A stretch of DNA of 64,000 nucleotides from Ignavibacteria bacterium (GTDB lineage: Bacteria; Bacteroidota; Ignavibacteria; Tepidaquicellales; Tepidaquicellaceae): positions 1 to 64,000 of the forward strand of contig JABAQZ010000020.1 in assembly GCA_019187405.1 (NCBI GenBank), written 5' to 3'. This document shows, piece after piece, positions 62,004 through 63,551 of the stretch; positions within the stretch are counted from its first letter, which is position 1; every line of letters begins with the position of its first letter. Under the pieces are notes generated by a model. That model saw only the letters and a list, made by a program, of their open reading frames with translations. It made no database searches and was not told the origin of the DNA. The position numbers and the translations under genes were made by a program.

Positions 62004-62459
62004 TTAATCTTTGTTATTAATTTTTTCAAGCATATACAGTTTTTTTGCGCATAATTTTTTCTTTGAAACTGCTTGAGCAGAGTCTTTTAGTTTAAGATGC
62101 CGGACGACTGCTCTGGATTTTTTATTTCCGACTGAATAAAAATTTACCGAGATTCTTGTAAATCCGTGGTTCCATTTTGCCCGGAAAGATTTATCGATAC
62201 TTTTAGTTGTGACTTCAATATCTTCAACCAGCCAATTTTTTCTTAATTTGATGTTTACAAAATAATTATACAGGTTTTTCAATGGAATTCCGAAGGTTTT
62301 GCTTACACTTATTTCAAAACCTTTTGGTTTTTGATAAAGCTTTCGGAGGTCTTTTTCTTTTTCATATTCCACTGTAAGCATCTGGCTCCACCATCCGCCA
62401 ACGGGATAATTATCATAAATCCATTGGGCAATTTCTTTGTGAGGTTTTTCTGCAGACAT
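62004..62459 (-). CDS. SRPBCC/START-like protein with an unusual start
   Basis: A protein of 151 residues if read from ATG 62459. KPHKEIAQWIYDNYPVGGWW and MLTVEYEKEKDL resemble the family in which a short N-terminal segment precedes an SRPBCC-like (AHSA1/START) domain, here FEISVSKTFGIPLKNLYNYF to the end. Upstream, the frame stays open to 62585 and encodes SNDAVKKTTGKSWKDWFRIL, conserved in this family. The true N-terminus is therefore very likely further up, but no ATG, GTG or TTG occurs in 62460-62585. The gene may use ATT/ATA or may have lost its start. Family recalled from memory. Confidence 0.6.
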   Translation of the reverse strand: MSAEKPHKEIAQWIYDNYPVGGWWSQMLTVEYEKEKDLRKLYQKPKGFEISVSKTFGIPLKNLYNYFVNIKLRKNWLVEDIEVTTKSIDKSFRAKWNHGFTRISVNFYSVGNKKSRAVVRHLKLKDSAQAVSKKKLCAKKLYMLEKINNKD

Positions 62460-62640
62460 TTCTAAATCGAGAATTCTGAACCAGTCTTTCCACGATTTAC
62501 CGGTTGTTTTTTTAACAGCGTCGTTGCTGACCCGTTTTAAAGTTATTTGTTTTTTTGCAAAATGATTTATTGAAATATAAAAGATTTAAACGCAGGGTAA
62601 ATTAATTAAAATGGTAATAACTTTTGAAAATATTTTTTGC

Positions 62641-62823
62641 GTTGGGTGGGGGGGGGGGTGGGGAAACCGTTTAAACGGTTTCCCCCCCCACCCAACCAAT
62701 ATGCTGCTCAAGGGGAAGGATGAGAAAACCGTTTAAACGGTTTTCCCACCCGCTCCCCCAATATGCCGCTCAAAGGGAAGGATGAGAAAACCGTTTAAAC
62801 GGTTTTCCCACCCGCTCCCCCAT
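62641..62823. repeat. GC-rich array of three palindromes at 62-bp spacing
   Basis: Cores AAACCGTTTAAACGGTTT start at 62664, 62726 and 62788, exactly 62 bp apart. Units 2 (62697-62758) and 3 (62759-62820) differ at 2 of 62 positions; unit 1 shares the core and part of the right flank but has G runs (up to 11 G) on the left. Core 1 is a 26-nt perfect palindrome (62660-62685), cores 2 and 3 are 20 nt. The block is much richer in G and C than its surroundings and lies between a sulfotransferase gene and the SRPBCC-like gene. No CRISPR-like unique spacers: the sequence between cores is itself repeated. Confidence 0.95.
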
Positions 62824-62867: not shown

Positions 62868-63551
62868 TCATAAATTCAGTCTGCATGCAAATTCATAGAC
62901 TTTGTATTCCAGTGAACATTTATCCTTAAAAATTCTTATGGAAGATTCAGAAGGCCTTCGCTCTCTTTCCGAATAATTTAATTTATATAAATCTATTGTT
63001 GGCTTATTTAATTTTTCTGCGAGTATGTTTAGTGACTTTTGATAATCTTCCAGCACACCTATATGAATGTAATTATTATTAATTACCGATTCAAAATTCT
63101 CTTCATTCATTTCTTCTGGGAAAAAAACATGAGAATATGGTTTGCTTGTTTCAAGATATTCATCAATATCATAATTAATGGTTCTCTTCTTGCCGTTTAC
63201 ATAAAGTTTATCTTTCTGGGATAAATTATATTCATACCAGAAAGTTGAAACCTGCATTTCAAGCGGTTCTCTTACAAATGTAAAATACTGCTTAATTTCG
63301 GGATAATACTGTCTTGCTCCTACTCCTGCTGTATTTTCAAAATGTCCGTGAATGCAAATCCCTCGTTTAAATTTTCCCGTTAAGAAATTTTTAACTTTTA
63401 CTTTTATGGGAAACTCTCCCTTTTTGTGATGATAGTAGTGTAAAAAAAATTTGTCCCCGAACCAGTGTTTAAGTACTGACTGCAAGCTTATCCCTCCGCA
63501 TTTCGGAATATGTATAGATATTACCGGTTCTTTATGATTATATTCCAGCAA
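62868..63551 (-). CDS. Sulfotransferase family 2-like protein
   Basis: A 227-residue protein with the PAPS-binding loop HIPKCGGIS (14-22, matching the IPKTGGTS type) and the 3'-phosphate motif FTFVREPLEMQVSTFW (91-105). These mark the Sulfotransfer_2 group, which sulfates carbohydrates. It starts at TTG 63551. It lies next to a membrane glycosyltransferase gene on the same strand, so surface glycan modification is likely; the substrate is not known. Confidence 0.8.
   Translation of the reverse strand: MLEYNHKEPVISIHIPKCGGISLQSVLKHWFGDKFFLHYYHHKKGEFPIKVKVKNFLTGKFKRGICIHGHFENTAGVGARQYYPEIKQYFTFVREPLEMQVSTFWYEYNLSQKDKLYVNGKKRTINYDIDEYLETSKPYSHVFFPEEMNEENFESVINNNYIHIGVLEDYQKSLNILAEKLNKPTIDLYKLNYSERERRPSESSIRIFKDKCSLEYKVYEFACRLNL

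Follow-up and report, generated by a model that had tools for sequence, protein, structure and literature searches.

REP/RAYT systems are well known, and a palindrome of the class described here has been seen before in Caldithrix abyssi, where it was left unexplained (PMC5317091): it is 18 nt long (aAACCGTTgaAACGGTTt), occurs in 38 exact copies, and was called REP-like by its authors, who reported no conservation outside the 18 nt and named no transposase. The TnpA_REP enzymes that have been studied need a GTAG tag beside the hairpin; in REPINs, paired inverted REPs about 100 nt apart act as a unit. Subclass 1.2 of the TnpA_Y1 transposases is listed as being without REP (Quentin et al., 2018, PMC6006769).

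The window (the whole stretch analysed, 64,000 nt of an Ignavibacteria genome) contains at 62641-62823 a cluster that is very probably a short array of REP-like palindromes that forms part of a REP/RAYT-type system and is cognate to a single-copy clade of IS200-like HuH/Y1 transposases. Its 18-bp core (AAACCGTT-NN-AACGGTTT, a predicted hairpin when single-stranded) is present as three exact matches to AAACCGTTTAAACGGTTT, at 62664-62681, 62726-62743 and 62788-62805, in steps of 62 and 62 bp; the chance expectation with up to 3 mismatches is 0.04, and 0 of 100 shuffles reach three. An earlier note on this DNA had reported three perfect palindromes at exact 62-bp spacing, two full units differing by 2 bases, and a GC-rich island amid AT-rich DNA. 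Coordinates and shuffles bear out the palindromes and their spacing, the island is real, and the two differences (T/C and G/A) both fall in the spacer. The “diverged half-unit” described at the left end does have a long G-run at copy 1, but makes more sense as the cluster's outer left arm (62641-62663, the G-rich half of a long stem, GTTGGGTGGGGGGGG...), because 62641-62655 pairs perfectly, over 15 bp, with 62682-62696. The longest local hairpin (62641-62696) is this 15-bp G/C arm pair enclosing core copy 1, with 100% complementary 15-nt arms and 26 nt between them. Folded as single-stranded DNA, 3/3 window copies beat shuffled sequence, with a z of -3.8 for the outer-left-arm stem. By arm comparison, spacer 1 (62682-62725) includes the C-rich right arm of copy 1, and spacer 2 (62744-62787) that of copy 2; outside the latter hairpin arm is a CGCT tag (62751-62754, plus strand) which recurs among this genome's copies. 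The outer right arm (62806-62822, TCCCACCCGCTCCCCCA) is C-rich as well, with CGCT at 62813-62816.

The ORFs flanking the array have no Pfam match, and the neighbouring-gene context plays no role in the explanation. A minus-strand ORF at 62868-63551, given for context only, has its stop 63 bp from the cluster, which would thus form part of its 3′ UTR. In the other direction, 205 bp separate the array from the ATG of minus-strand ORF 62004-62459, and about 60 bp from the upstream end of the open frame. The “abnormal start” ascribed to this SRPBCC-like gene is genuine: the frame stays open to about 62585 without ATG, GTG or TTG. A plausible N-terminus (VSNDAVKKTTGKSWKDWFRILD) is encoded upstream of the first ATG (62459) of this ORF (62004-62585, minus strand), where a start would have to be a rare one such as ATT, unless it has been lost.

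The 62-bp unit as a whole was found only at the window locus; elsewhere it is mostly the core plus an arm that recurs, and core-plus-arm pieces of about 33-37 nt from the window cluster are found at other loci (contigs C4, C2, and C8). In the host genome (3.78 Mb, 38 contigs) there are 65 exact cores, against 0 for the exact reversed control pattern, and only 2 more copies within 1-2 mismatches; 63 of the 65 were located, in 24 clusters of 1-5 cores, the window array being one. Together with the copies in relatives and other phyla described below, this supports the “dispersed palindromic element” among the earlier note's candidates. The repeat is extremely homogeneous: the 187 kb fetched round the clusters hold 63 exact cores and 0 at 1-3 mismatches, and the centre is TA in 65 of 66 copies, making the core fully symmetric in practically all of them. 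Spacers of neighbouring units diverge by 1-18% while the cores stay unchanged; the probability of all cores being identical at the spacer rate is about 3e-7, by a test that is approximate because the clusters were located via exact cores. Spacings inside clusters give no sign of skipped decayed cores.

All 24 located clusters fall between confident ORFs, with genes called by a simple longest-ORF rule. For 18 clusters both neighbours are known: 8 lie between plus-strand genes, 6 between minus-strand genes, 3 between convergent genes, and 1 between divergent genes, whose ORFs are far away. The distance to the stop codon of the adjacent gene is usually 9-80 bp, and nearly all clusters are within about 80 bp 3′ of a gene.

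Each locus has its own spacer and its own unit length, 62 bp in the window and up to 217 bp at other clusters. Within one cluster the spacers closely resemble one another, so that the earlier exclusion of a CRISPR array was right. Most clusters have n cores and n-1 spacers between unrelated outer flanks, which points to duplication between cores. Simple tandem duplication was rejected as the sole source of the arrays: it fits only L007 and L010, in which the outer extensions plus a core make one period. A core-to-core unit of about 65 bp is common to seven clusters (L008, L012, L016, L020, L156, L158, and L160), several of which precede paralogous genes for secreted proteins (MRNIKIQIYIL...) by about 210 bp; since several such clusters also share paralogous neighbour genes, this shared doublet is no evidence of mobility. 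In L160, two spacer types alternate. At least 7 of the 24 clusters are within about 600 bp of a contig end (C7, C8, C9, C16, C21, C22, and C27), indicating that the assembly breaks at them and that copy numbers per cluster are uncertain.

The decisive element is invisible within the window, because the transposase lies on another contig. A Pfam Y1_Tnp search of the genome gave seven places, only one of which, on contig C6, adjoins a located cluster. The protein encoded there (P0001, 141 aa; Y1_Tnp, E 2e-21) matches IS200/IS605 transposases and aligns with ISHp608 TnpA through HxH and Tyr, so that its predicted fold, by homology, is that of the IS608 enzyme. The catalytic HxH and Tyr are thus present. 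WQ and Y---Q--HH motifs are found in most rows of the transposase alignment, and P0001 itself has WQ and YISNQSVYH (the second His only); judging from these motifs, it fits TnpA subclass 1.2. A core cluster begins 27 bp upstream of its gene, cores being on the upstream side only in this genome. Three genera have the transposase gene at one and the same position, upstream of a shared aminotransferase gene, with one close homologue per genome; each of the 4 syntenic orthologues in sister genera g2 and g12, placed likewise with respect to that gene (75-80% identical), has a core on either side. The P0001 gene is single-copy, at a fixed site, and vertically inherited in this lineage. In four loci (L030-L032, L104) the last codons and the stop of the transposase gene (AAA ACC GTT TAA, K-T-V-stop) come from the downstream core, which overlaps it, and in L035 the reading frame likewise enters the downstream core. 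An IS200/IS605 insertion sequence (subclass 1.1) was considered and rejected: the gene is in one copy, and the repeats are dispersed without it.

The family-wide protein search for P0001 homologues was run without knowledge of the core. Its 12 best-scoring homologues (at least 110 bits) have the core at one or both sides (12/12), while none of the lower-scoring intact homologues examined is core-flanked; the core thus flanks the P0001 clade and not its sister clades. Inner palindrome type clusters when mapped on a tree of 52 proteins: 7 changes account for the label “core”, compared with a shuffled mean of 16.1 (0/500), although 4 of the 20 core rows (L061, L080, L096, and L104) are not independent, having been found via the core search. 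Many of the lower-scoring homologues have other flanking palindromes, e.g., of GGCTNNAGCC or ATCCC..GGGAT types. In the sister clades these take the form of GGCTTTAGCC with outer CCCCACCG..CGGTGGGG types, as well as ATCCC..GGGAT (loci L039, L041, L051, L052, L197, L199; L042, L045, L047, L048, L055-L057), which suggests that subclass 1.2 as a whole may be REP-associated.

Copy number correlates with the intact gene. At least 6 relaxed cores (6-66) are present in each of the 10 family genomes whose transposase is core-flanked; the 19 others divide into 13 with none, 3 with 1-3, and 3 with at least 6 (10/10 versus 3/19, Fisher 1.4e-5, a value that ignores kinship). Within genus g12, G011 combines an intact gene with 18 cores, while in G021 the gene at the same site is interrupted by three stops and only 1 core is present. 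In another family genome, G014, 20 relaxed cores were counted but no P0001 homologue was found; copies can thus persist without the transposase, or another factor may maintain them.

Of the two arms beside the core, one is often rich in G and the opposite one in C, with letters that differ between loci. Pairing of arms within a locus exceeds that of arms shuffled among loci: cluster ends form 4.2 of 6 pairs versus 2.9 (0/2000 shuffles). CGCT, read outwards, is found in 17 of 48 cluster-end arms versus 2.3 expected and 2 in control flanks, the number of independent cases being below 17 because some of these clusters are paralogous; in genus g2, the letters at this position seem more like CCGG. 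GTAG occurs within 12 nt of 7 of the 63 copies, chiefly in the paralogous clusters with the 65-bp unit. With no constant GTAG at the hairpin foot, the repeat is not filed as a GTAG REP.

The arms can also be followed between species. In genus g2, species with flanks about 80-89% identical share the core at two sites; in one species the copy has decayed. At one of these (site B), the arms in three species are GTCTCAG/CTGAGAC, GTCTCCGG/CCGGAGAC, and ACCGGATAATCAGA/TCTGATTATCCGGT. Hairpins therefore persist while their letters turn over, via selection on structure or template-switch correction of imperfect palindromes. Among three between-species site comparisons, none revealed a fresh insertion with clean borders: two are old shared copies, and the third differs by about 130 nt with indistinct ends.

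Among the matches listed in GTDB genomes, exact cores are also found in Bacteroidota, Acidobacteriota, Verrucomicrobiota, Marinimicrobia, and others. The 30 such genomes that were counted have 1-8 exact cores each, which makes the 65 found here exceptional. Some of the listed matches look like chance (Enterococcus L072, Marinobacter L087, and Bacilli L131, without an outer palindrome), and the Marinobacter and Bacilli genomes (G074 and G086) have no transposase homologue either. In other phyla the core often has a 20-bp outer palindrome to its left and another to its right, each at 22 ± 2 nt, so that it occupies the midpoint; strict outer-core-outer triads with inverted outer palindromes were found at 22 of 96 loci, versus 1 of 1772 control positions. 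Such outer palindromes were not seen round the cores of the present genome. Transposase genes in triad genomes and in Ignavibacteria relatives show the order outer-core-gene-core-outer, complete or partial, and recombination between the two cores of this gene-bearing form could have given rise to the triad that lacks a gene.

A broader reading can be offered only tentatively, and we think it rather less probable than its negation. On this reading, AAACCGTTNNAACGGTTT would be a shared REP core for TnpA subclass 1.2 in several phyla, forming in many hosts the exact centre of an outer-core-outer triad of about 102 bp (with outer-core-gene-core-outer as the autonomous form); in some Ignavibacteria the system would have shrunk to core plus transposase, the symmetric hairpin being recognised without a guide tetranucleotide and its arms rebuilt at each locus.

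Other explanations of the clusters have to be set against a transposase-cognate REP-like repeat. The preservation of the 18-bp core letter for letter amid diverging spacers is what might be expected if it were primarily the duplex binding site of a chromosomal protein (a nucleoid or segregation factor), the transposase merely carrying copies, and its identity across several phyla in which the outer palindromes differ could be read in the same way. A duplex-binding site, however, has no need of arms that co-vary to keep pairing; the copies lie 3′ of genes, with just 1 of the 18 classified clusters between divergent genes; and the core is absent from many relatives in the same family and replaced by other palindromes beside related transposases. 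We regard such a site as unlikely. A further possibility, less likely again, is that the clusters are RNA 3′-end hairpins for transcription stop or exonuclease protection, multiplied by selection and not by a transposase. They are within tens of bases of stop codons, different arms keep pairing at orthologous sites, and the predicted RNA folds on both array strands are very stable (-121 and -105 kcal/mol, z -8.8 and -7.2); but selection for a hairpin explains neither the invariant letters of the core nor its flanking of the transposase gene across genera and phyla. Nor is there a convincing T-tailed terminator (1 terminator-like site versus 1.0 expected), or an Rfam family above gathering score, the sub-threshold matches being largely to hairpin families, which any long hairpin would be expected to resemble. 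The “transcript-end structure” suggested in the earlier note survives to the extent that the position 3′ of genes fits a possible secondary role, which is compatible with the REP/RAYT explanation.

That the window locus is an ordinary tandem repeat (minisatellite), or an artefact of assembly, is very improbable. It is a true tandem array, and given the clusters near contig ends the copy number per cluster may be misassembled, but the same core occurs in unrelated units, at orthologous sites elsewhere, and in other phyla. The search for further copies that the earlier note had proposed thus yields 24 loci here and orthologous sites in other species, and these independent copies exclude an assembly artefact. 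As main explanations, its “minisatellite” and “iteron array” are both unsupported: units are locus-specific, and only the palindrome and its pairing arms are shared.

We therefore return to a REP-like repeat with a cognate transposase, and to how it might operate. Counting against it are the lack of a constant GTAG, with CGCT in that place at only about a third of cluster-end arms, the cores on just one side of the P0001 gene, the 20 relaxed cores of G014, and the lack of a fresh insertion with clean borders among the sites compared. Transposition and activity are inferred. P0001 would bind the folded single-stranded core and nick beside it, and copies would spread through DNA left single-stranded during lagging-strand synthesis or repair, following the proposal made for TnpA_REP (PMC8266576). 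The locus-specific tandem arrays would arise later, by slippage or recombination between cores; hairpins that had come to lie 3′ of genes may be tolerated, or may be useful as mRNA 3′-end structures. The intact and broken genes in sister species offer a natural test of whether the transposase maintains the repeat, and the three self-pairing arm sets at orthologous sites are a case of structure kept through sequence turnover.

The system corresponds to a REPtron in the wide sense, with many extragenic copies of a palindrome, a palindrome-flanked HuH/Y1 gene, and single-copy inheritance of that gene at a fixed site. It resembles the GTAG REP/RAYT systems (REPtrons, BIMEs, REPINs; PMC2817692, PMC3733652, PMC3116915, PMC8266576) in its clustered short extragenic palindrome 3′ of genes and in its low-copy HuH/Y1 transposase flanked by the repeat. 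It differs in having no GTAG guide, a symmetric core without orientation, arms that vary freely yet pair, and a third palindrome placed centrally between two outer ones in other phyla. As they are described in the text of Di Nocera (2013, PMC3733652), which makes no mention of Ignavibacteria, TIRYT elements with self-complementary TIRs are similar too, with related transposases flanked by non-GTAG palindromes, some of them dispersed. The WQ and Y---Q--HH motifs, low copy number, and Bacteroidetes-type hosts are shared with TnpA_Y1 subclass 1.2 (PMC6006769); in contrast to that listing, subclass 1.2 members in this family are flanked by dispersed palindromes, and a transposase subclass described as without REP thereby gains a cognate dispersed repeat. 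The Caldithrix abyssi palindrome has the same 7+7 invariant positions, is likewise 18 nt long and intergenic, lies between convergent genes, and avoids upstream regions; but its centre is mostly GA/TC, giving a strand direction, where the present one is a symmetric TA, and the repeat here is in locus-specific arrays and tied to a transposase. That orphan palindrome thus gains a likely maker. Not found in the open-access literature, and new relative to it, are the link between the palindrome and a subclass 1.2 transposase, a symmetric form that lacks a tag and has variable yet pairing arms, the locus-specific arrays, and the triad of other phyla. Against the rule of an asymmetric GTAG-tagged hairpin for TnpA_REP, the symmetric tag-free hairpin stands as a testable exception.
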